Origin: a virus
Virus record (IMG/VR): IMGVR_UViG_3300049893_000921
Span: 1 to 32,580 of that record
Length of the DNA stretch: 32,580 bases
Strand: one strand, 5' to 3'
In this document: piece by piece, positions 15,887-31,364 of the stretch
Position numbering within the stretch: position 1 is the first letter of the stretch
How the letters are laid out: every line of letters begins with the position of its first letter
Notes under the pieces: model-generated
Databases searched by the model: none
What the model was told of the DNA's origin: nothing
Seen by the model: only the letters and a program-made list of their open reading frames with translations
Position numbers and translations under genes: made by a program

Positions 15887-15915
15887 CCAACCCACCCCGC
15901 AAAGGGCTTTTATTT

Positions 15916-15989
15916 GCTCCCGTAGCTCAGCCGGATATAGCAACGACCTTCTAAGTCGTGGGCCGCAGGTTCGAGTCCTGCCGGGGCGC
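15916..15989 (+). tRNA. tRNA-Arg (anticodon UCU) with a damaged acceptor stem
   Basis: 74 bases with the anticodon arm ACGACCTTCTAAGTCGT and T arm GCAGG-TTCGAGT-CCTGC that also occur in E. coli argU. It would read AGA/AGG. The D stem has one mismatch (C13-T22). In the acceptor stem pairs 3-7 form (3-70 as U-G), but 1-72 (G-G) and 2-71 (C-C) do not in standard register. A one-base bulge on the 3' side would allow G1-C73 and C2-G72. CCA is not encoded. It may be a functional phage tRNA or a decaying copy of a host gene. Confidence 0.8.
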
Positions 15990-17013: not shown

Positions 17014-17517
17014 TTAAAAAGGGATGTCGTCGTCAAAACTATCAAATTCTGGTGCTGGCGCTTGATTCCCCGGTGGCCGATTTGTGGCACCAGACGATGG
17101 ATTGACCGAACGGCCAACTGGGCCTGGCGAACCATAATCCCCAGATGAGGATGCACTGCTGGTATCCACATTGCCGCCGCGACCGTCCAACATTTGCATT
17201 TCACTGGCAACAATTTCGGTGGTGAATCGCTCTACGCCCTGCTGATCAGTCCACTTGCGCGTGCGCAGTGAGCCTTCCACGTAAACCTTACTGCCCTTGC
17301 GCAAATACTCGCCCGCAATTTCAGCTAAACGATTAAAAAACACTACCCTGTGCCATTCGGTGCGTTCCTGGGCCTGTCCAGACTGTTTGTCTTTCCAGGC
17401 TTCCGAGGTCGCCACGCTGATGTTGGCAATAGCAGCCCCTGCTGGGGTATAACGCACCTCGGGGTCTTGCCCCAAGTTGCCCACCAAAATTACTTTATTC
17501 ACTCCACGACTTGCCAT
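17014..17517 (-). CDS. ssb: Single-stranded DNA-binding protein
   Basis: 167 residues. OB-fold with the classical SSB sequence [20 protein letters not shown] and [20 protein letters not shown], a G/S/P-rich linker, and the acidic tail [11 protein letters not shown] that docks partner proteins. Protects ssDNA and recruits replication/recombination proteins. Ribosome site GAGGTT upstream; it is last in the leftward early unit, right after the RuvC-like gene. The rightward unit carries a second protein with the same tail. Confidence 0.95.
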
Positions 17518-17532
17518 TTTTAACCTCGATTT

Positions 17533-17994
17533 TTAAATAATTTTGATCTGATCTAAATGCTTATACAAAAAGCCGAAATACGCTGCGCTTCTCGTATCTG
17601 CGTTTGTCCTGCCTTGCCACCCTGTCACTTTTTTAAATTCTGCTATTGATTCCGTCGATTTCCATTTCGACGATGGCGCAGCAAGAATTAACGGGATTTC
17701 AAAGTGCTCACAAAACTGCTCAACAATTATTTGAGCTGTCTGATTCATCCCGACATTGCAACCCATTCTTCCAAGCTGCGCCATGTTTTTTTTGTTTGCT
17801 CGCTGTCTAAAAACTTGACTGAGTTGTAATACGTTCTCACAGACCACGACTGTATTTTTGTTTTCAGATTTTTCTTTTAAAAACGAAAACAGGTGCGGGT
17901 GATTTAATAACAACAAATCCACAAGTTTTGCTTTTTCATAAATCGCTACACCGTGCGCTCGTGAGTCAGGGTCAATACCAATGGTCACATTCAT
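17533..17994 (-). CDS. RuvC-like Holliday junction resolvase
   Basis: 153 residues. Starts MNVTIGIDPDSRAHGVAIYE, with the first catalytic aspartate at D8, then VVVCENV (E53) and NADTRSAAYFGF (D133), the acidic set of RNase-H-fold resolvases. A poxvirus/phage-type RuvC relative would resolve recombination or replication junctions before packaging. Its ribosome site is AGG, ten bases upstream of ATG. It lies 16 bp upstream of SSB, in the same transcript. Confidence 0.75.
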   Translation of the reverse strand: MNVTIGIDPDSRAHGVAIYEKAKLVDLLLLNHPHLFSFLKEKSENKNTVVVCENVLQLSQVFRQRANKKNMAQLGRMGCNVGMNQTAQIIVEQFCEHFEIPLILAAPSSKWKSTESIAEFKKVTGWQGRTNADTRSAAYFGFLYKHLDQIKII

Positions 17995-18018
17995 TCTTAA
18001 AACCTGTTTTTGTTTATT

Positions 18019-18080
18019 ATATAACCGGCTTTGGGCGATAGGCGGTACATATCGTCAAGTCGGAAAATAAACTGTTAGGC
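18019..18080 (+). repeat. Degenerate attC-like site at the left end of the cassette cluster
   Basis: ATATAAC (18019-18025) and GTTAGGC (18074-18080) form the outer cores; inside, CCGGCTT pairs with AAGTCGG and CGATA with TATCG. Spacing between the inner box and the GTTAGGC core is longer than usual. The TTA of GTTAGGC is also the TAA stop of the 18075-18518 gene on the minus strand. Confidence 0.45.
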
Positions 18081-18518
18081 TGGCGTATTAAACGGAACAT
18101 ATTCCGTGTGCGGCGTATATGGGAAAACTACTGGCACCGCACTCTCGTAACTTGTGTAGTGTGAACCGTTTTCGTCTTCAAACACTTTGCCTTGAATATC
18201 GTAAGCCTTACCGTCAAATCTATCACCGCCTTTAAATACATGGCTACATCGCACGTTTTGGAACATGCCATTTGAAACTTCAACCCATTCATTATCGCTA
18301 CCTGAAAGCGGGGCTAACGGCTCAAACATTGCCAGTTTTTCAAACAACCTAATGCAATGCGGGGCAGAAAATCCACTATGCCCTTGGTCACTGAAAACTC
18401 TCAGTAATTCAATCACGCTTTCCTGAATCCATTTATCGGGGTTTTCATCGCATTCTTCCACTGGTTTATACCCTACTGCTAAAAATTCGCGTTTAGCGTG
18501 TTCAATTAAATTGCTCAT
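18075..18518 (-). CDS. Conserved phage hypothetical protein in cassette 1
   Basis: 147 residues from ATG 18518 (AGGA upstream); starts MSNLIEHAKREFLAVGYKPV and contains NPDKWIQESVIELLRVF and HSGFSAPHCIRLFEKL. It looks like a conserved small phage/plasmid protein of unknown function. Its TAA stop is formed by the attC core GTTAGGC at 18074-18080. The cassette end GCCTAAC (18551-18557) is the reverse complement of its beginning TTAGGC, so the unit has the self-complementary ends of an integron cassette, but with the ORF in antisense orientation. Confidence 0.7.
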   Translation of the reverse strand: MSNLIEHAKREFLAVGYKPVEECDENPDKWIQESVIELLRVFSDQGHSGFSAPHCIRLFEKLAMFEPLAPLSGSDNEWVEVSNGMFQNVRCSHVFKGGDRFDGKAYDIQGKVFEDENGSHYTSYESAVPVVFPYTPHTEYVPFNTPA

Positions 18519-18550
18519 GTTAATATCCTGTTTTGTCGTAATTGAGTTAA

Positions 18551-18610
18551 GCCTAACAAGTCGTTCCAAGCGATAGCCCTTACGGGCTACGCATGAACTC
18601 GGCGTTATAC
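18551..18610 (+). repeat. attC-like recombination site A
   Basis: Outer cores GCCTAAC (18551-18557) and GTTATAC (18604-18610). Next to them TAACAAGTCGTTC and GAACTCGGCGTTA are almost the arms of the aadA attC (TAACAATTCGTTC, TTAACTCAGGCGTTA), with two unpaired bases on one side. The centre is a TAGCCC-ttac-GGGCTA hairpin. 60 bp. Confidence 0.85.
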
Positions 18611-18787
18611 GGCATACTTAGCATCAAATGCAGCCGTTCCAATTCGCTTACATTCTTCCACATAACCCCAAACATATTCGGCTATGGATTCTTTTCCGTA
18701 CATATCATCACCGTATTTTAATGTTTCAAAATCCCATCCTTTTTCTATTGCTCGTCTTGCTATCTTAACCATTTCTTTCTGTTCCAT
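18605..18787 (-). CDS. Small hypothetical protein in cassette 2
   Basis: 60 residues from ATG 18787, chosen because AAGGTGA is correctly spaced; in-frame ATG codons at 18796 and nearby fall inside that ribosome site. Helical and acidic (IARRAIEKGWDFETLKYGDD, AEYVWGYVEECKRIG). Its TAA stop is the TTA of the attC core GTTATAC. Cassette start TTATACGGCAT and end ATGCCGTATAA are perfect inverted copies over 11 bp. Function unknown. Confidence 0.65.
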   Translation of the reverse strand: MEQKEMVKIARRAIEKGWDFETLKYGDDMYGKESIAEYVWGYVEECKRIGTAAFDAKYAV

Positions 18788-18815
18788 AATCATCACCTTT
18801 TTGTTAAAAAATGCC

Positions 18816-18946
18816 GTATAACAAGGCGCTCAAGCACCAGTCGCTACGCTCATTGGACAGTCTTTAAGCCGCGCTTATTTGCATTCGCTTCGCTCATTGT
18901 TGCAAAACGCGCAACTTAAATCCTGCCGCTTAGCTTGGCGTTACAT
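18816..18946 (+). repeat. attC-like recombination site B (long form)
   Basis: GTATAAC (18816-18822) and GTTACAT (18940-18946) as outer cores; inner boxes GGCGCTCAAGC and GCTTAGCTTGGC pair. The 131-bp length, with several internal inverted pieces (GCTACGCTCATTG, GCTTCGCTCATTG), is in the range of long attC sites such as the Vibrio cholerae repeats. Confidence 0.8.
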
Positions 18947-18950
18947 TCAC

Positions 18951-19247
18951 TCATCTAGGGAGCGGTATGAACAGACCATCGTATTTTTCATGTACGTCAA
19001 CACCATCGCGCCCTTCAAGCAGGCTGCTCGCTCGTTCGAGTATTGAATCTGTAAGTTGGCCTTTGTTTGCAAAATTAATGCAATCGTTTAGAAGGTCATT
19101 CAATCCATTTTCAAGCTCTTCTATTCGTTCAGCCGCTTGGGTAAGCATGTGCTTCCCACCGTGATCGCCACCTCTAGCATACTGTCCGTTGGTGTACTGC
19201 TTGCCTTGGTAATGCAGTCTTTGTTTTAAAGTTTTTCTGTCTAACAT
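18951..19247 (-). CDS. Hypothetical phage protein in cassette 3
   Basis: 98 residues from ATG 19247 with GAGGA ribosome site. Basic N-terminus with a glycine-rich stretch (QYTNGQYARGGDHGGKHMLT), then an amphipathic coiled helix (AAERIEELENGLNDLLND) and an acidic end. Looks like other small phage early proteins with a C-terminal dimerising helix. It lies between attC B and attC C, whose cores TTACATT and AATGTAA are complementary. No known function. Confidence 0.65.
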   Translation of the reverse strand: MLDRKTLKQRLHYQGKQYTNGQYARGGDHGGKHMLTQAAERIEELENGLNDLLNDCINFANKGQLTDSILERASSLLEGRDGVDVHEKYDGLFIPLPR

Positions 19248-19270
19248 TTCTAAGTCCTCATGTTTTGTAA

Positions 19271-19356
19271 ATGTAACAAGTCGCTGAAAGGCGACGGAAT
19301 TTACATCGTATTTTTAAAGCAGGCTCATACAGCCGCGCTTTAGCTCTGCGTTACAT
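19271..19356 (+). repeat. attC-like recombination site C
   Basis: ATGTAAC (19271-19277) and GTTACAT (19350-19356), with TAACAAGTCGCTGAAAG at one side and CTTTAGCTCTGCGTTA at the other pairing to a stem; 86 bp. Same orientation as A and B. Confidence 0.8.
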
Positions 19357-19384
19357 GCTGCCTGTGAGAGCGCAGCACTTGGCA

Positions 19385-19687
19385 TTAAAGCGATACAGCT
19401 AAAGATTGCTTAAGCAAGTAACCTTCGAGCGCCCATATTTTTTCGCGGGCATTTTGTCGGGCAATCTTGCGGCCAATTTCTAAATCAAAGTTTTCGGGGC
19501 TTGCGGCTGCGCTTTCACCTGTTACGGTAAAACCGTTGCGCAAAGTTAAGCAGCAAACGGTTAAAGTAGTGCCTTCAAAAACGTGGTACTGCTCACCAGC
19601 AATGGTGTTGTCAATGTGCTGCGGGTTTAATCGCGGTGCGTTTAAACCTTTGTCTTGAATTTCATTTTCAATTGCTTGTTCTGACAT
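19385..19687 (-). CDS. N4 gp49 / Sf6 gp66 family protein in cassette 4
   Basis: 100 residues with the near-complete family core: PRLNPQHIDNTIAGEQYHVF, TTLTVCCLTLRNGFTVTGES, then ASPENFDLEIGRKIARQNA and IWALEGYLLKQSL. The family is widespread in phages with no firm function. Ribosome site AGAGG lies ten bases upstream of ATG 19687. Finding a genuine phage family between two attC-like sites argues that the cassettes carry phage genes and are not unrelated integron cargo. Confidence 0.85.
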   Translation of the reverse strand: MSEQAIENEIQDKGLNAPRLNPQHIDNTIAGEQYHVFEGTTLTVCCLTLRNGFTVTGESAAASPENFDLEIGRKIARQNAREKIWALEGYLLKQSLAVSL

Positions 19688-19728
19688 TTTTTAAACCTCT
19701 CACTTGGTTAAATTAAACCTGCTACAAC

Positions 19729-19802
19729 ATGTAACAAGTCGTTGGTACATCGTTCGCTTTGCTCACTGGACGCCGCAAGCGGCGCACAACTCGGCATTAT
19801 AC
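19729..19802 (+). repeat. attC-like recombination site D
   Basis: ATGTAAC (19729-19735) and ATTATAC (19796-19802); the usual G at the crossover is A here. TAACAAGTCGTTGG and CAACTCGGCATTA pair around a GCCGC-aag-GCGGC hairpin. 74 bp. Its TTA is the stop of the 19797-20087 gene. Confidence 0.75.
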
Positions 19803-20087
19803 ACCAGCCTGAATCCAGCCAAGGCTCATTGACTGGCACATTTTAATAAAAAGCTCTTTTTCCGTTCGACCATATTCTTGATCAAATGGGTAAACTGATC
19901 CGTATACAATACCCCTAGCGTGTACGCTTATTTTCCAATCACCATCGCGGCGAATCTGGCAAACATCTCGGAAAGCCGGAGTTTCTTTGTCATCATCATT
20001 GAATCTGTAATCTACAAATCCAGCAGCAACATTCCCATCGCAGATAATGTCAAACAGTTTTTCGTAGTCTTCAGAAAGGTTGTACAT
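19797..20087 (-). CDS. Hypothetical protein in cassette 5 (right end open)
   Basis: 96 residues from ATG 20087 (GAGGA upstream): acidic N-terminus MYNLSEDYEKLFDIICDGN, beta core (WKISVHARGIVYGSVYPF) and a C-terminal helix ending WIQAGV. Stop codon supplied by attC D. No matching attC with the expected GGTGTATAAC core follows on the right, so the cassette has either lost its end or marks the array boundary. Function unknown. Confidence 0.65.
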   Translation of the reverse strand: MYNLSEDYEKLFDIICDGNVAAGFVDYRFNDDDKETPAFRDVCQIRRDGDWKISVHARGIVYGSVYPFDQEYGRTEKELFIKMCQSMSLGWIQAGV

Positions 20088-20119
20088 TCTTAATTCCTCA
20101 TCTCACTAAAGTTAAGTTT

Positions 20120-20257
20120 TTATAACGGCGTTCTAAAAACAAGCGAAATACTAGCTAGAGCAATCGCAATAATGCACAGCGTTATCACTGTTCCGATTAT
20201 TCGCTCCTCTTTTTTTGACATCAAATAATCGTTAAGACTTTTTTCGTACTCGCTCAT
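20120..20257 (-). CDS. Small single-pass membrane protein
   Basis: 45 residues: charged N-terminus MSEYEKSLNDYLMSKKEERI followed by one hydrophobic helix (IGTVITLCIIAIALASISLV) and FRTPL. ATG 20257 lies in a short gap before the NinB-like gene. Its TAA falls in TTATAAC near GGCGTT, which resembles half of an attC core and could be a relic of the missing end of cassette 5. Membrane role unknown. Confidence 0.55.
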   Translation of the reverse strand: MSEYEKSLNDYLMSKKEERIIGTVITLCIIAIALASISLVFRTPL

Positions 20258-20267
20258 AAATTCACCT

Positions 20268-20744
20268 TTATTTTTCGTTTAGCCATTTAGTCCAAATTTT
20301 TAACATTGCGCCCGTAGGTTTGGGAATTGTTATTTTCCAGAACTGAAAAATAAACTCCTCTACTTTTTTCACAAAATCGCAAAATTCTTTTGTTGACAGC
20401 TCTGTCGTGCTCCTGAATATTTCAATACTGCGCCCTTTCGATTCGATCACCTGTTTAATTAAAAACTTTCTTTTAAAAATTTCGTGCAGAACGTCTTTAG
20501 TGTAAGGCATCTCGCTGTCATCGTCGCACTTGATAACAATGCCTCCGTCTTCTAAGTTTTTTTCTATGTGATAGTACACCCACCCCCACAAAAATCTATT
20601 TTGTAATTCAGTTCTTGCGGGTAGACTCTTTTCGATCTTAACGCAAATCGGCCCGCCATCAAATTTTGTTTGTTGTAAAAATTCAACAACAGCCCCTAAT
20701 TGTTTTTCGTTTTCGATAATCCAGAACTCTCCCTGGGTTAACAT
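20268..20744 (-). CDS. ninB: NinB-like recombination protein
   Basis: 158 residues. The pattern RTELQNRFLWGWVYYHIEKN corresponds to the conserved RSLDQNRKLW segment of lambda NinB, and STTELSTKEFCDFVKKVEEF to its STSRMRVSEF region. NinB (Orf) proteins bind single-stranded DNA and help load recombinase/annealing partners. Its start lies within the preceding gene (7-nt overlap) with an AGGAG site. It sits among replication and recombination genes (O, P, RuvC, SSB), as NinB does in lambdoid phages. Confidence 0.7.
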   Translation of the reverse strand: MLTQGEFWIIENEKQLGAVVEFLQQTKFDGGPICVKIEKSLPARTELQNRFLWGWVYYHIEKNLEDGGIVIKCDDDSEMPYTKDVLHEIFKRKFLIKQVIESKGRSIEIFRSTTELSTKEFCDFVKKVEEFIFQFWKITIPKPTGAMLKIWTKWLNEK

Positions 20745-21357: not shown

Positions 21358-21833
21358 TTAAATATCCCCTTTAGTGCTTTGCATTTTTCTAGCGCAAGTT
21401 CGCGGCGCTTTTCGCGTTCTTCTTTCGTCTCGACTGGAGCCGGTAAAAAAGTTTGATACATTTTCTTGTTGGTGTTTAGTTCGCCAGCGCAACGAAGGAA
21501 AATCATCACGTTTGGCTCTAGGTATTCCTTTTCTCCTTCGCTTGCCAATTTAGTCATGTACCTGATAGCTTCGTCGATCTGCTCGCGGGTGAACTTTCCA
21601 ATTTCTTTCGCATAGGCGCGCTTAGTTAGGTTTACCTCTTTCTCGCTCGGCCAAATCAGGTCGAATTTGTTAGGGTAGAGAGCTTTCAGCAAAACGAACA
21701 AGTACCCGGTGCGATCCCTTTCCTCATCGGTGAAGTTAGAAGCGCGTTGCCCGTTGGTAGTCTGTGATTGCGTCCGTGAGGTCTGCCCTGCGGTCGTGAT
21801 AACTTGGTTTATTGTTTCCGTTATTTTTTGCAT
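21354..21833 (-). CDS. Lambda P-like replication protein (helicase loader)
   Basis: 159 residues. The core LFVLLKALYPNKFDLIWPSE, then IGKFTREQIDEAIRYMTKLA and a proline/cysteine-containing segment LEPNVMIFLRCAGELN corresponds to the C-terminal half of lambda P-type loaders (233 residues), which bring host DnaB to the O-ori complex. The N-terminal 35 residues are Q/T-rich. ATG 21833 gives a 98-nt overlap with the O-like gene; a later alternative start after the O stop (TTG) is possible. Confidence 0.65.
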   Translation of the reverse strand: MQKITETINQVITTAGQTSRTQSQTTNGQRASNFTDEERDRTGYLFVLLKALYPNKFDLIWPSEKEVNLTKRAYAKEIGKFTREQIDEAIRYMTKLASEGEKEYLEPNVMIFLRCAGELNTNKKMYQTFLPAPVETKEEREKRRELALEKCKALKGIFK

Positions 21834-22542
21834 TATTTTCAGCCTCTCGTCTTACCCAATTTCGCCATGTTGCCAGCCAGTCCGTCTTAGTCGCATCCTT
21901 TCCAGATTTGGCAACCCAGTAGTCTTTGAAGGTTGCCGCGATGCTGTTGAACTTAGGTTTCAGCTTTTCGTCAATGTTGGCCAGTTCGTCAAAGAATTCT
22001 TGAGATGGTATCCAGTCCGCCGGTAGTCGAGTTGCCCGAGTTTGTTTTTCGGGAATTGGCTGATCAGGTACAACTTTTTCGAATTCATCCGCTTGCGGAA
22101 GAATATCTTTTACTGTCTTCTCTTCTCTTCTCTTCTCTTCTCTAGGTAACGCATCTAGCGTTAGTTTTTCGTTACCTTCAGCGTTACTTTTATCATTGCG
22201 TTTTTTGTGAGCGCTAACCCGCAACGCAGTATTTGCGCGGTTCTTAGCTGATTTACCATTATGGCGAGAAAAGTCCTTGAGAGAAATTTGATCATCAGCT
22301 TCGTGCATCCATCCTGCAAAAATCATAGCGTCACAAAAGTAAGCGTTACCAACTAAACGATTAAGCAACATTTTAGTAACGCTCGGAGCGTTACCTTTTT
22401 CGCTGTGTTGGTCAAACCAAATCCAAACTCTAAGAAGCTTTCCAATTACCGCGTCAGGATCCATATTCAACTTATTAGCGATAACCCATACCTCAGCCTT
22501 GTCAGGCGTGGCTATCTCGAATTTGATCCAATCACCGGCCAT
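21736..22542 (-). CDS. Lambda O-like replication initiator
   Basis: 268 residues. N-terminal winged-helix-like portion (WIKFEIATPDKAEVWVIANK, ...AVIGKLLRVWIWFDQH), a charged linker (REEKRREEK, encoded by a 5-bp repeat), and a C-terminal DnaT/O-like ssDNA-binding segment (FKDYWVAKSGKDATKTDWLA, TWRNWVRREA). Repeats within its coding sequence probably form the origin, as in lambda O. Start ATG 22542 overlaps a 32-codon ORF. It should bind the internal repeats, melt the origin and cooperate with the P-like loader. Confidence 0.7.
   Translation of the reverse strand: MAGDWIKFEIATPDKAEVWVIANKLNMDPDAVIGKLLRVWIWFDQHSEKGNAPSVTKMLLNRLVGNAYFCDAMIFAGWMHEADDQISLKDFSRHNGKSAKNRANTALRVSAHKKRNDKSNAEGNEKLTLDALPREEKRREEKTVKDILPQADEFEKVVPDQPIPEKQTRATRLPADWIPSQEFFDELANIDEKLKPKFNSIAATFKDYWVAKSGKDATKTDWLATWRNWVRREAENNAKNNGNNKPSYHDRRADLTDAITDYQRATRF
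22116..22143 (+). repeat. TCTTC pentanucleotide microsatellite (5 copies plus TCT) in O-like gene
   Basis: Five perfect TCTTC units; on the coding strand they encode the charged linker REEKRREEK. A change in copy number would shift frame and disrupt the initiator, so it is a possible phase-variable or slip-prone point. Confidence 0.8.
22145..22395. repeat. Iteron-like GCGTTAC(C) repeats, probable replication origin
   Basis: GGTAACGC 22145-22152, GCGTTAG 22158-22164, CGTTACC 22170-22176, GCGTTAC 22181-22187, GCGTTACC 22343-22350, GTAACGC 22376-22382 and GCGTTACC 22388-22395, in both orientations, all within the O-like gene. In lambda, O binds repeats in its own gene. Part of the repetition could reflect codon use (VTKML, RVSAH), so the origin role is inferred. 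Confidence 0.5.
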
Positions 22543-24226: not shown

Positions 24227-24790
24227 ATGAAATTCACAGAAATCAACGAAAACTTTGAAGCGTCGGAAGGCGCTGAATGGGAATTGGTAAATGAATTTTT
24301 GTGCGTAGTAAAAAAAGGGGTTTTAATGGCTAAAAAGCCAGGATCTGTCGCAGAGAGCTGGGCAGACGGAGCTATCGCACAGAGCTGGGTGCGTGGAGCT
24401 ATCGCAGAGAGCTGGGCAGACGGAGCTATCGCACAGAGCATGGCAGACGGAGCTATCGCACTGAGCATGTATTCTGGGGCTATCGCGCGGAGCCGGGTGC
24501 GTGGAGCTATCGCAGAGAGCCGGGCAGACGGAGCTGTCGCAGAGAGCTGGGTGCGTGGAGCTATCGCACAGAGCCGAGTGCCGGGAGCTATCGCACAGAG
24601 CTGGGTGCCGGGAGCTATCGCACAGAGCCGAGTGCCGGGAGCTATCGCACAGAGCCGAGTGCCGGGAGCTATCGCACAGAGCTGGGTGCCGGGAGCTATC
24701 GCACAGAGCCGAGTGCCGGGAGCTATCGCACAGAGCATGGAACCTGGAGCTATCGCCAAGAGCTGGGTGCCGGGAGCTTCAAATGAATAA
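24227..24790 (+). CDS. Nonapeptide-repeat protein, first rightward early gene
   Basis: 187 residues: a 38-residue N-terminal segment (MKFTEINENFEASEGAEWEL, then VVKKGVLMAKKP), sixteen 9-residue repeats of consensus GAIAxSxVx (residues 39-182), and GASNE. Hydrophobic A/I positions at every ninth residue with polar residues between suggest a beta-solenoid. The repeat lacks stop codons in other frames too, but this one has the ribosome site and promoter. It resembles no family I know. The neighbours are recombination genes. A binding, inhibitor or host-takeover role is possible but unproved. Confidence 0.75.
   Translation: MKFTEINENFEASEGAEWELVNEFLCVVKKGVLMAKKPGSVAESWADGAIAQSWVRGAIAESWADGAIAQSMADGAIALSMYSGAIARSRVRGAIAESRADGAVAESWVRGAIAQSRVPGAIAQSWVPGAIAQSRVPGAIAQSRVPGAIAQSWVPGAIAQSRVPGAIAQSMEPGAIAKSWVPGASNE
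24341..24772 (+). repeat. Sixteen tandem 27-bp coding repeats
   Basis: Repeat units begin GGAGCTATCGCACAGAGC; units 9-14 are nearly identical, differing mainly as CCGAGTGCC or TGGGTGCC, while the first eight are more divergent. The length, a multiple of three, keeps the frame after gain or loss of copies. Confidence 0.95.
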
Positions 24791-25127
24791 CAAACAGATA
24801 TTAATATATGAAGCGAATCAACAAATTATTGACGCATGGGAGCGCGTCAACCAAATGCAAAAAGATTTTTTGAAAGGTAAGTTTGTTGTTGGAATTAAAA
24901 TGGAAGATGTTAGGGATATTGTTTTTAGTAGACCGGAAATTGACGAAATTCTGAAGGAATTTATTCAAACAGAAGGATCATCGAAGAAATTTTTTGACGA
25001 AATGAAAAGAGCAGTCAGAATTTTGGCGTTTGATTTCATCCTGGGCAACGAGCATCTGCCCTACGCTATTTTTACAGTAGAAGAACTCGAAGAATTTATA
25101 GAGCAAATTAAAAAAGAGGGGTTTTAA
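24783..25127 (+). CDS. Hypothetical acidic/helical protein
   Basis: 114 residues from ATG 24783 (MNNKQILIYEANQQIIDAWE), overlapping the repeat-gene end by 8 nt. Its frame is open upstream through the repeats (as ELSHRAECR-type repeats) because the 27-bp unit has no stop in that frame, but no ribosome site is seen there. Helical with a charged C-terminus (VEELEEFIEQIKKEGF). Function unknown. Confidence 0.6.
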   Translation: MNNKQILIYEANQQIIDAWERVNQMQKDFLKGKFVVGIKMEDVRDIVFSRPEIDEILKEFIQTEGSSKKFFDEMKRAVRILAFDFILGNEHLPYAIFTVEELEEFIEQIKKEGF

Positions 25128-25130
25128 ATC

Positions 25131-25331
25131 GTGAGCCTTGCTGAAATTTATCCAGAGCGCCACAAGCCATACATTGACACCGGCATTGTGCGCGTAATCG
25201 AATCACCTTTGAAAATAACCGCTTTCGTTCGCAATGCTGGCGTTTTGGGTGTTGGACACGGTAAAACCAAAGACGAAGCACTTAAATCAGCCTGGCATGA
25301 CGCAGGCAAATTCGATGGAGCACATAAATGA
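25131..25331 (+). CDS. Small hypothetical protein (GTG start)
   Basis: 66 residues from GTG 25131 after an AAGAGGGG site. Contains GIVRVIESPLKITAFVRNAG and VGHGKTKDEALKSAWHDAGK. A compact beta-helix protein of unknown family. Stop overlaps the next ATG (ATGA). Confidence 0.55.
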   Translation: MSLAEIYPERHKPYIDTGIVRVIESPLKITAFVRNAGVLGVGHGKTKDEALKSAWHDAGKFDGAHK

Positions 25332-28776: not shown

Positions 28777-28944
28777 ATGAGCAAACTGGCTGACTTTGAG
28801 CGAGATATAGCAGATGTTTTAAATAAACACGGTATTGATGCGCAAGCAAAAACGCCGGACTACATTTTGGCTGCGTATGTAACAACATGTATAGCCGCAC
28901 TGAAAAGCGCAAAGGTTGCGCAGGCTGAACACGAAAAAGCATAA
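28777..28944 (+). CDS. Small conserved phage protein at attC F
   Basis: 55 residues from ATG 28777 (AGGAAACTGAATT before it); MSKLADFERDIADVLNKHGI and LAAYVTTCIAALKSAKV. Looks like a common small phage family. Its TAA stop lies in GCATAAC, the outer core of a minus-orientation attC, the same arrangement as in the leftward cluster. The expected second attC on its other side is not visible. Confidence 0.65.
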   Translation: MSKLADFERDIADVLNKHGIDAQAKTPDYILAAYVTTCIAALKSAKVAQAEHEKA

Positions 28945-28991
28945 CGCTGAGATTTGCAGTGCGAAGCATCTGCAAGATTGACTTGTTACAT
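28939..28991 (-). repeat. attC-like recombination site F (minus orientation)
   Basis: On the minus strand ATGTAAC (28991-28985), then AAGTCAATCTTGCAG, ATGCTTCGCA, CTGCAAATCTCAGC and GTTATGC (28945-28939): cores and paired arms of an attC, 53 bp. The flanking ORFs are on the plus strand, so they again lie antisense to the site. Confidence 0.8.
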
Positions 28992-29031
28992 TTACTTTAA
29001 TTTATTTTACTAAACAAAAGAGGTAATTAAT

Positions 29032-29220
29032 ATGTTTGGATTAATTGGAAGCCTTGCAAAAGCGACCTTAGGATTGGTGGTAGAAACACCTATTGCCTTA
29101 GCTGCTGACGTTGTAACTATGGGTGGTGCGCTTACAGATAAAAGTGAGCCATATACTGCGACCGCACTTAAAAAAGTTGCGAAGAATGTGAGTGATGCTA
29201 CTGACCCTGACAAAGATTGA
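29032..29220 (+). CDS. Small phage protein between attC F and G
   Basis: 62 residues (MFGLIGSLAKATLGLVVETP, then ADVVTMGGALTDKSEPYTAT): a hydrophobic N-terminus followed by a charged tail, like a widespread short phage protein found near early genes. AAGAGG ribosome site. It forms a cassette of about 290 bp whose minus-strand start TTACATT is complementary to the AATGTAA of site F. Confidence 0.65.
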   Translation: MFGLIGSLAKATLGLVVETPIALAADVVTMGGALTDKSEPYTATALKKVAKNVSDATDPDKD

Positions 29221-29224
29221 GTGA

Positions 29225-29284
29225 ATGTAACGACTAGCTAAACCGTTTTACAGTGGGTACGGCAAGTATAATATATCGTTAATT
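29225..29284 (-). repeat. Degenerate attC-like site G at the operon end
   Basis: Minus strand: outer AATTAAC (29284-29278) and GTTACAT (29231-29225), with weaker inner pairing. It spans the gap between the convergent 29220 and 29283 genes; a CCGTTTTACAG stretch lies inside. Weak by arms, supported by its GTTACATT core matching site F. Confidence 0.4.
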
Positions 29285-31364
29285 AAACCTTAAGAACTTC
29301 AACGCTCAGAGTGCCAGACGCCAAATTAATAGCTCCTGACGTTGCGTTTGTTGCGGTCACTGTCACAGTGTCTACTGCGCTTACGTAAGCCGATAAAATA
29401 ATTCCTTGCAGCGCAATATTCATGTAGGCCGATACTTTATTTTGCGAAGTTAGCGCGAACGGTACGGTAACCGTTGTTGTTGATGTATCTCCAGCCGCTA
29501 TGTTTGGCCAATCGAATGTTTTTGAGCCAGTTAATACATTGGTATCTTGAACATCATTTCTCAGCACCAGAGATGTGCTAGTTGTGCTGATGTTTGAAGT
29601 TGAGTTAGAGGTAGAGCCGATTGAGGAAGAAACACCATAAAGAATACCGTTTGCCGCATCTTCAAAGCGCGTGCCGATTACGTGCGCATTTGCAGAGGTG
29701 TCCAAATAGATATGCGCCAAAGCATCGCCTGCGAGGGTTCCGCCTTCGTTGTTGCTGCGCATAGTCTTCGGCCCGAAGAAGTTGCTATCTCCTCCTGAAG
29801 CGCAGTAAATGCCGTTTCGTTGCGCGCCCTCGATCAATTCAGGGAATATGTAAACTCTGCGAGCGCTCGATGTAACACTAACGCCGTGGTCACCCTCTTT
29901 AATTGATCCGCCATTAAGATAAACACCCTCGACACCGTTGCCGGATATATCAACAACGTTGAAAGTATCGTCAGATAGAAAGTCAGGATTATTAACATAA
30001 ACAGATCGAACCGCACCAGCAGCGCCATCTATAGATAAAGCCGTACCAATAACCCCTGATGCGTCAGAATTTGTAGTTGGGCTGTTGATGATTACGTTTT
30101 TCAGAGTTGCGCCAGTCGACGCGATGTTTAAGAATTTTTGACCGTAGTCCTCTCCTCGCGGATTTTGAAGCATTAGCTCTCCGTGGGTGATATAAACCCC
30201 TCGCCCTGCGCCGCCATATTCGTGTGCGAATACCGGATCGATGTATTCGTTGTGAGCCATTCCTATTGGTGTATCGCCATATTCGCTATAGCTGTACCAA
30301 AGAGGAGAGCGGCGATAATTGCTTGATATCATGCCCTCATGCCGATGCAAATAACCGCCATCATGGTGCATGTTATCGCGAAAATTAGCCACGATTAGGT
30401 CTTTTGTTTTCGTGTACCCTGTCTGCCGTAAAACAAGCCCTTTATTTGTAACTGCCGTGGCTGTGCTGTACCCGCCAACAAGACCAAAACCCTCAAGGAC
30501 TACCCCGAAGCAATTTAAAAATGTTAGCGCGTCAATGTTTGTGCCCGTGCAATACCACCCGCATTGCTGATTATTTTTGCAGACAATTTTAACGGGAGTG
30601 GATGCGCCATTAATTGAAAGCGCGGACACGAATTTATAGTTACCGTAAAACTCACCAGTCGCACCAGATGATGCTAAATAATTCAAGAACTTTTGAATTG
30701 CTGTCGTGTTATCAGTTCCGGCATAGGTAGAAGTATTATAATCAGCTACAGCTTCAAACCATGTAAGATTTACAGGTGTATTAATATATCGTTTAAAATG
30801 CTTATTAGATGAATTCCATATTGAGTTAGTTTTAATAACTCCTCCATCGTCTATATTTGAACCGGATCTAACAATAAATTCACCTTGAGTGCCAGTATTT
30901 GTGACAAAAACCCTGTCACCTATATTAAATTCCGATGGATCAAGCGCAAGCAAAGACGAATAATCTGCCACAGTTTGGAATTTAATTTTTTTACCAATTT
31001 CAGTGTCTTGATCCGCATTATAAGCGTCAATCTCTATGAACTTTTCAATATATCCGTTACTTTTAGGCGTATAATATTTCTGCACACCTAAAGAATTCAT
31101 TATTTGTACGCAGTAAGGAACCAAAACATTAATCTGTGCAGGCTGACCGCTGTACATGATCTGGCCACCCGGTCCAATATCAAGTGGCTGTGCAATTGCA
31201 AGATCGGATAAGCCCTGTCGCGCCAAATAAATTTGAATGCGATCACCAGGAACAGTAGCGGGGCTACCATCTGGAACACCGAACCACACCTTGCCGCCAG
31301 CCAGCGCTTTAAACTGTGCTGGATCGGTTACGTTGATTATGCCTAATTCTGCGCTGTAGCTCAT
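29283..31364 (-). CDS. Tailspike with P22-like head-binding domain and beta-helix
   Basis: 693 residues (P22 gp9 is 666). Residues about 1-115 match the head-binding domain pattern (VTDPAQFKALAGGKVWFGVP, PGDRIQIYLARQG, GGQIMYSGQPAQINVLV). After a linker comes a right-handed beta-helix starting near GTDNTTAIQKFLNYLASSGA. Residues after about 560 form a beta-rich C-terminus. Trimers bind and often cleave the host O-antigen. ATG 31364 overlaps the ejection-gene TGA (ATGA). The segment around 30600-31050 is more AT-rich than the flanking ends, consistent with module swapping. Confidence 0.9.
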   Translation of the reverse strand: MSYSAELGIINVTDPAQFKALAGGKVWFGVPDGSPATVPGDRIQIYLARQGLSDLAIAQPLDIGPGGQIMYSGQPAQINVLVPYCVQIMNSLGVQKYYTPKSNGYIEKFIEIDAYNADQDTEIGKKIKFQTVADYSSLLALDPSEFNIGDRVFVTNTGTQGEFIVRSGSNIDDGGVIKTNSIWNSSNKHFKRYINTPVNLTWFEAVADYNTSTYAGTDNTTAIQKFLNYLASSGATGEFYGNYKFVSALSINGASTPVKIVCKNNQQCGWYCTGTNIDALTFLNCFGVVLEGFGLVGGYSTATAVTNKGLVLRQTGYTKTKDLIVANFRDNMHHDGGYLHRHEGMISSNYRRSPLWYSYSEYGDTPIGMAHNEYIDPVFAHEYGGAGRGVYITHGELMLQNPRGEDYGQKFLNIASTGATLKNVIINSPTTNSDASGVIGTALSIDGAAGAVRSVYVNNPDFLSDDTFNVVDISGNGVEGVYLNGGSIKEGDHGVSVTSSARRVYIFPELIEGAQRNGIYCASGGDSNFFGPKTMRSNNEGGTLAGDALAHIYLDTSANAHVIGTRFEDAANGILYGVSSSIGSTSNSTSNISTTSTSLVLRNDVQDTNVLTGSKTFDWPNIAAGDTSTTTVTVPFALTSQNKVSAYMNIALQGIILSAYVSAVDTVTVTATNATSGAINLASGTLSVEVLKV

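Follow-up and report, generated by a model that had tools for sequence, protein, structure and literature searches.

Evidence for integron-type gene cassettes in reversed orientation in both early operons of a phage genome with no recognised integron integrase gene

Bacterial integrons have mostly been described as banks of genes that serve bacteria. The window analysed here, which is the whole 32,580-bp IMG/VR virus record IMGVR_UViG_3300049893_000921, raises the question of whether cassettes of the integron type can also be built into phage operons, and why their ORFs would lie antisense to the attC sites. The large terminase of this virus shares 92-95% identity with a few metagenomic relatives and ~47% with that of Pseudomonas phage AH02. 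Two early operons diverge near 24.1-24.2 kb. The minus operon extends down to a putative SSB gene (17014-17517; this name and that of the RuvC-like gene mentioned below were read from the sequences), and the plus operon extends to a 62-aa ORF ending at 29220, which is followed by a convergent tail-spike gene (29283-31364). We found no match to the intI profile TIGR02249 in the window or in the phage relatives searched, and the window, having no such intI gene, thus holds no complete integron. A tRNA-Arg gene with the anticodon TCT is found at 15915-15989, and a tRNA was the single Rfam find in the window at gathering thresholds. Within 24227-25127, a tandem repeat with a unit of 26-27 bp (16 copies, 24336-24778) can be read through in several frames of either strand (GAIAQSWVP-type, ELSHRAGCR-type and, on the minus strand, CAIAPGTRL-type). 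A pure TCTTC repeat (5.6 copies, 22116-22143) within the ORF at 21736-22542 is a possible slippage site.

To avoid circularity, we trained a covariance model of attC (named R2) only on bacterial sites beside integron integrases. TIGR02249 integrase genes were located in gammaproteobacterial genomes, and the sites of their flanking arrays were chained by matching cassette ends. R2 was built from 30 of these sites, with the orientation fixed by the integrase, and has 81% of its cells paired with strong covariation. A model with an automatic structure (R1) was dropped for its few pairs. An initial regex-and-fold search was too loose and was superseded by the cassette-end chains beside IntI genes, and then by the covariance model. 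The matching-end test is symmetric and yields chains on both strands; it cannot give the orientation of an attC site, which therefore rests on the covariance model. In the bacterial arrays, R2 gave >110 matches at E values up to 0.5, nearly all oriented away from intI. In a 380-kb joint search with 41 matches elsewhere, the relatives and the phage loci without arrays gave zero matches at E values up to 0.5. Phage P12002L, named in PMC9892861, had no match with R2. With the filters off, the only significant matches in the window are three sites, named B, F and D. Two narrow attC patterns retrieved only already-known contigs, and the free-energy z-scores of single sites were uninformative for F.

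Site F (28939-28991) lies in the plus operon, and R2 matches its minus strand alone, with 30.5 bits and an E value of 1.7e-5 for the window (filters off). Its R'' box is ATGTAAC (28991-28985) and its R' box is GTTATGC (28945-28939), with the crossover between 28945 and 28944. Compared with the degenerate consensus RYYYAAC..GTTRRRY, each box has one mismatch, while the AAC and GTT are exact, and an imperfect L''/L' inverted repeat is present. The folded strand forms a hairpin with a single bulged base, the strand asymmetry of attC bottom strands. Near-copies of F exist in two other phages: at 704-756 of contig L017, from a sister phage, and at 611-663 of contig L109, from the unrelated phage G009. 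Both copies have neighbours other than those of F. The L017 copy sits in the minus-operon array of that phage beside a different ORF, and L017 was the sole find in a scan for the exact DNA of F. The stem of the L109 copy differs from F by compensatory changes (CAG/CTG to CGG/CCG and TGC/GCA to CAC/GTG). The sequence-only reading had called F a good attC on the minus strand, and both the R2 score and the near-copies in L017 and L109 agree.

Between two G↓TT crossovers (the arrow marks the crossover point), a 286-bp unit (28945-29230) comprises attC F, a leader and the 62-aa ORF. The sequence AATGTAAC at 29224-29231 is identical to R'' of F (GTTACATT on the plus strand) at 8/8 positions, as had been anticipated for the cassette start at G. 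With one attC, one ORF and an R'' that matches the cassette start, this F-G unit has the make-up of a gene cassette. As also predicted, the small ORF between F and G (29032-29220) lies on the plus strand, antisense to attC; a sense ORF is typical of gene cassettes, although not absolute. It has an AGAGG ribosome-binding site and belongs to phrog_33676 (7.8e-15). Homologues of the 62-aa protein with up to 77% identity are found in unrelated phages without attC, indicating that the cassette carries a phage gene. Site G was rejected as a full attC: it has no match to the covariance model, and the 5' arm is absent. What is retained on the minus strand is a 3' arm (L'-R', 29225-29247). G also agrees over 24 bp with site C of the minus operon, at the 3' end of that site. 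Scored with a position weight matrix of phage attC 3' arms, the G arm (29228-29247, minus strand) reaches 16.1 bits, rank 5 of the window positions, and the same arm of F reaches 15.4. G, described earlier as a degenerate attC, thus keeps an arm that scores like those of true sites, but is a half-site rather than a complete degenerate attC. The plus operon accordingly contains one complete attC and one half-site, while a CALIN (a cluster of attC sites lacking integrase) takes at least two attC.

Upstream of the cassette, a 55-aa ORF on the plus strand (28777-28944), with homologues in actinophages, ends with its TAA (28942-28944) exactly at the G↓TT crossover, so the proposed placement of this stop in the attC core was correct. 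There is no attC upstream of this ORF, and the simplest reading is thus that the cassette went in at the stop of a native gene. On this reading the 55-aa ORF is probably that operon gene, with its TAA as the insertion point. The junction without the F cassette would read ..GCATAA↓CGACTAGC on the plus strand. An empty F site was absent from the sequences compared, because no close relative among them spans the plus operon.

The minus operon holds a longer array of sites, all on the plus strand. Site A (18019-18080) is of attC-like build, ends in ..CTG↓TTAGGC and is conserved in L017, serving as a conserved backbone anchor. Site B (18551-18610) scores 43.3 bits on the plus strand and 6.8 on the minus strand, and site D (19271-19356) scores 27.0 bits. 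Site C (18816-18946) is long, with canonical 5' and 3' arms, the best 3'-arm score in the window and matching cassette ends. Site E (19729-19802) has the core ATT instead of GTT and a weak R2 score (8.8 bits), and was recognised by its core, its 5' arm and its matching ends. With two sites above threshold, two more recognised by their arms and no intI, the array at 18019-19802 is a CALIN. All the ORFs between these attC sites lie on the minus strand, antisense to attC. They encode a Tad3-type inhibitor of type I Thoeris (18075-18518) and proteins of 63 aa (18605-18796), 98 aa (18951-19247), 100 aa (19385-19687; Phage_gp49_66 family, PF13876, 4.3e-32) and 96 aa (19797-20087). The stop TAA lies in the core for the Tad3-type, 63-aa and 96-aa ORFs. 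The Tad3-type protein matches PF25185 (1.4e-38) with 131.7 bits against a curated cut-off of 27, and its activity is predicted from this family. A search of 369 gammaproteobacterial genomes gave no Tad3 match, but the control matched nowhere either, and this negative therefore carries little weight. Methyltransferases are found among the cargo of other phage arrays. Judging by families, the cassette cargo of phages would include anti-defence genes. At the other end of the minus array, the stop of a 45-aa backbone gene carries TATAACGGCGTT (20117-20135), which resembles an attC of which only the outer ends are left. Nothing similar is present at this position in L017.

Comparison with L017 shows how such arrays change. 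The two phages share 97% (96.6%) identity over 17191-18077 and 93% over 20135-20590 of the window, with nothing shared between. Between the shared flanks, L017 has other attC sites and other ORFs, and the similarity breaks off at 18077, exactly where site A has its G↓TT crossover. This is a whole-array replacement on a constant backbone. The sequence-only reading had named two points that would count against it: failure of F in attC models, or homologous phages with the same genes and neither attC-like sequences nor cassette turnover. As far as the sequences reach, the outcome favours that reading: F is recognised by R2 and the minus-operon array has turned over completely in L017. The homologues of the 62-aa protein elsewhere do lack attC.

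The main rival to mobilisation by an integron integrase is that integron-derived sites are now shuffled without any integrase, through phage-encoded single-strand annealing or through general homologous recombination, acting on attC-like repeats. Annealing proteins are encoded by the array-bearing phages G010 and G015, and G010 also encodes an exonuclease. Some cassettes and attC-leader modules recur at 80-97% DNA identity in phages whose backbones differ. The shared stretches of attC plus leader measure 75-185 bp, and some of them are joined to unlike ORFs, which homologous recombination explains equally well. However, the breaks coincide with the G↓TT core, as at 18077 in the comparison with L017, and the cassette ends match as in IntI products. 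Moreover, many attC sites of one array are too diverged to anneal, yet their pairing is kept, as between F and its L109 counterpart. We therefore regard shuffling without an integrase as unlikely, although a serious competitor. Site E with its leader is one of the shared modules, with 88-94% DNA identity to the attC plus leader in L030, L107 and L133. The related segments (L030 4757-4864, L107 16720-16824, L133 10222-10328 and window 19698-19802) are ~90% identical, and the same attC and leader precede different ORFs in at least two phages (the window and L030). Leaders and attC may travel separately from the coding part.

The reversed orientation is not peculiar to the window. Under strict criteria, the longest ORF between neighbouring attC sites is antisense in 30/32 phage cassettes, whereas it is sense in 64 of the 70 bacterial ones (Fisher p = 1.4e-17, with cassettes within one array not independent). 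Counted per locus, which is for that reason the more telling view, antisense ORFs are the majority in 13/13 phage loci counted and sense ORFs in 16/17 bacterial loci. A looser count gives 32/36 antisense ORFs for phages and 12/85 for bacteria. The phage sample amounts to about a dozen phages. In a matched control, one DNA pattern, applied to both collections, retrieved nothing but sense units in the seven model-confirmed bacterial loci and antisense arrays in viral contigs. Depositor annotations concur: in MW202573 the CDSs are on the plus strand and attC on the minus strand, and in Pseudoalteromonas phage H101 the CDSs are on the minus strand and attC on the plus strand. The contigs examined carry phage genes, namely terminases (phrog_2, phrog_9, phrog_15), portals, tape measures, and annealing proteins or replicative helicases. 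One exception is actinophage TJE1, whose cassettes are sense. The bacterial integrons L078 and L088 contain several antisense cassettes as a minority, which might be phage-derived. The antisense arrangement first noticed in the two operons of the window is thus seen again in some dozen further phages, whereas bacterial integrons do not follow it, and chance, already doubted from the repeat within the window, is rejected by the E values, the near-copies of F and the matched bacterial control.

This excess might instead be a founder effect, in which a few related phages exchange one reversed stock and no rule exists. Some exchange is evident: a 53-aa cassette protein is 96% identical at the amino acid level in G012 and G015, and G009 and G011 have genes in common. 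On the other hand, the phages carry terminases of different families (the three named above), and H101 and MW202573, also antisense, had no DNA resembling that of the other phage loci with which they were compared. A founder effect therefore seems improbable to us as the source of the bias.

Stop codons are also placed differently in the two groups. Among sites with a TTA core, this TTA serves an antisense ORF (at least 40 aa) as its TAA stop at 36 of 58 phage sites vs 8 of 92 bacterial sites, whereas sense ORFs ending at R'' are found at 55/108 bacterial sites and 6/65 phage sites. Most of the phage ORF stops listed share a single position within the core. On the operon strand, the core G↓TTA reads TAA↓C, so that an insertion there spares the upstream gene. 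The position in the operon is less uniform. The proposal that insertions sit at operon ends is borne out by F, by G009, in which a homologous recombination operon with relatives of the window genes at 25328, 26267, 26935 and 27623 has, on its distal side, an array that includes the F-type attC, and by G011, in which each of two opposed operons has one array, the second before convergent genes. It does not extend to the minus array of the window, which is near but not at the operon end, with two more operon genes, the RuvC-like and SSB genes, beyond it. The arrays of G011 (contig L111, 3666-5614 and 9804-10160) lie in opposite operons and are both antisense, like those of the window. That the hairpins are RNA or transcription elements (weak terminators or processing sites) merely resembling attC is very improbable: they are located between operon genes and form in mRNA, and PMC9892861 describes attC sites as presumed weak terminators, but a terminator needs no R''/R' boxes, matching ends, model-recognised strand asymmetry or whole-array replacement.

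The sequences therefore show bacterial-type attC sites with matching cassette ends, antisense ORFs and crossover stops in most antisense units, together with array replacement between sister phages and cassette and attC modules that unrelated phages have in common. We consider it likely that F-G is an integron-type cassette in an integrase-less phage that has a second, longer array, and that a host integrase acting in trans, with selection, produced a reversed cassette pool. Since the window encodes no integrase, we infer mobilisation by a host integron integrase. The integrase would join the bottom strand of attC to a G↓TT core that reads TAA↓C on the coding strand of the operon, and the cassette would enter right after the stop, leaving the gene intact. 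As this target faces against transcription, the phage operon would read a cassette only if its ORF runs antisense to attC, and selection would lock the phage pool in the reversed orientation. Without Pc, entry at a stop codon would allow only reversed cassettes to be expressed. Alternatively, the antisense bias may be linked to the strand exposed by transcription. It is known that IntI recombines the bottom strand of attC, that single-stranded DNA, including that of phage infection, favours its folding, and that in the usual case this preference for the bottom strand allows cassettes to be expressed from Pc (PMC8946536). In IntI1 assays, 5 of the 6 phage attC sites tested recombined, including the two chosen from PH101 (the same phage as H101), and the failure was in another phage (PMC9892861). 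IntI1 thus recombines attI1 with attC sites from virulent phages, and a methyltransferase cargo has been suggested to serve in anti-restriction (PMC9892861).

More tentatively, and with nearly as much to be said for it as against it, phages may share an antisense-locked pool of their own, from which host integrases, acting in trans, place small genes, those for counter-defence among them, exactly behind the stops of early operons and exchange them. Such a system would resemble an integron but lack attI, promoter and integrase. These observations suggest that phages plug in and swap genes, one of them anti-defence, at the ends of other genes. If this is true, the accessory ends of early operons are remodelled by phages gene by gene with the neighbours unharmed, bacterial integrons have a link to the phages' part in the arms race over defence, and the orientation logic of the phage system is the reverse of the bacterial one. 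The orientation rule would also provide a simple finder for accessory and anti-defence genes of phages, namely short ORFs ending at a reversed attC core. A testable claim arises as well, that host integrases act on infecting phage DNA.

In the literature searched, a selection that missed many journals and preprints, we did not find this reversed layout with its stop anchor described. The closest known systems are the phage CALINs (Qi et al. 2023, PMC9892861), which are likewise attC arrays in phage genomes without intI. The text of Qi et al. gives same-direction cassettes as typical and mentions neither antisense ORFs, the crossover stop, sister-phage turnover nor a Tad3 cassette, while their phage PH101 (H101) is antisense by the depositor annotation. 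Chromosomal integron arrays of bacteria are similar in attC structure, core sites, matching ends and compact single-ORF units, but their cassettes are in the sense orientation (64/70) beside intI, whereas the phage cassettes are reversed and lie in operons of phages that lack intI. In bacterial genomes, cassettes can also be placed by IntI at sites of a non-classical kind, named attG (Loot et al. 2024, as cited in PMC12901181). Like the attC x attG insertion described in that citation, the phage cassettes would represent insertion outside an integron at a non-classical site. As cited there, attC x attG recombination is known for bacterial genomes, and the phage case would differ from it in being repeated at stop codons and in a fixed, reversed orientation.
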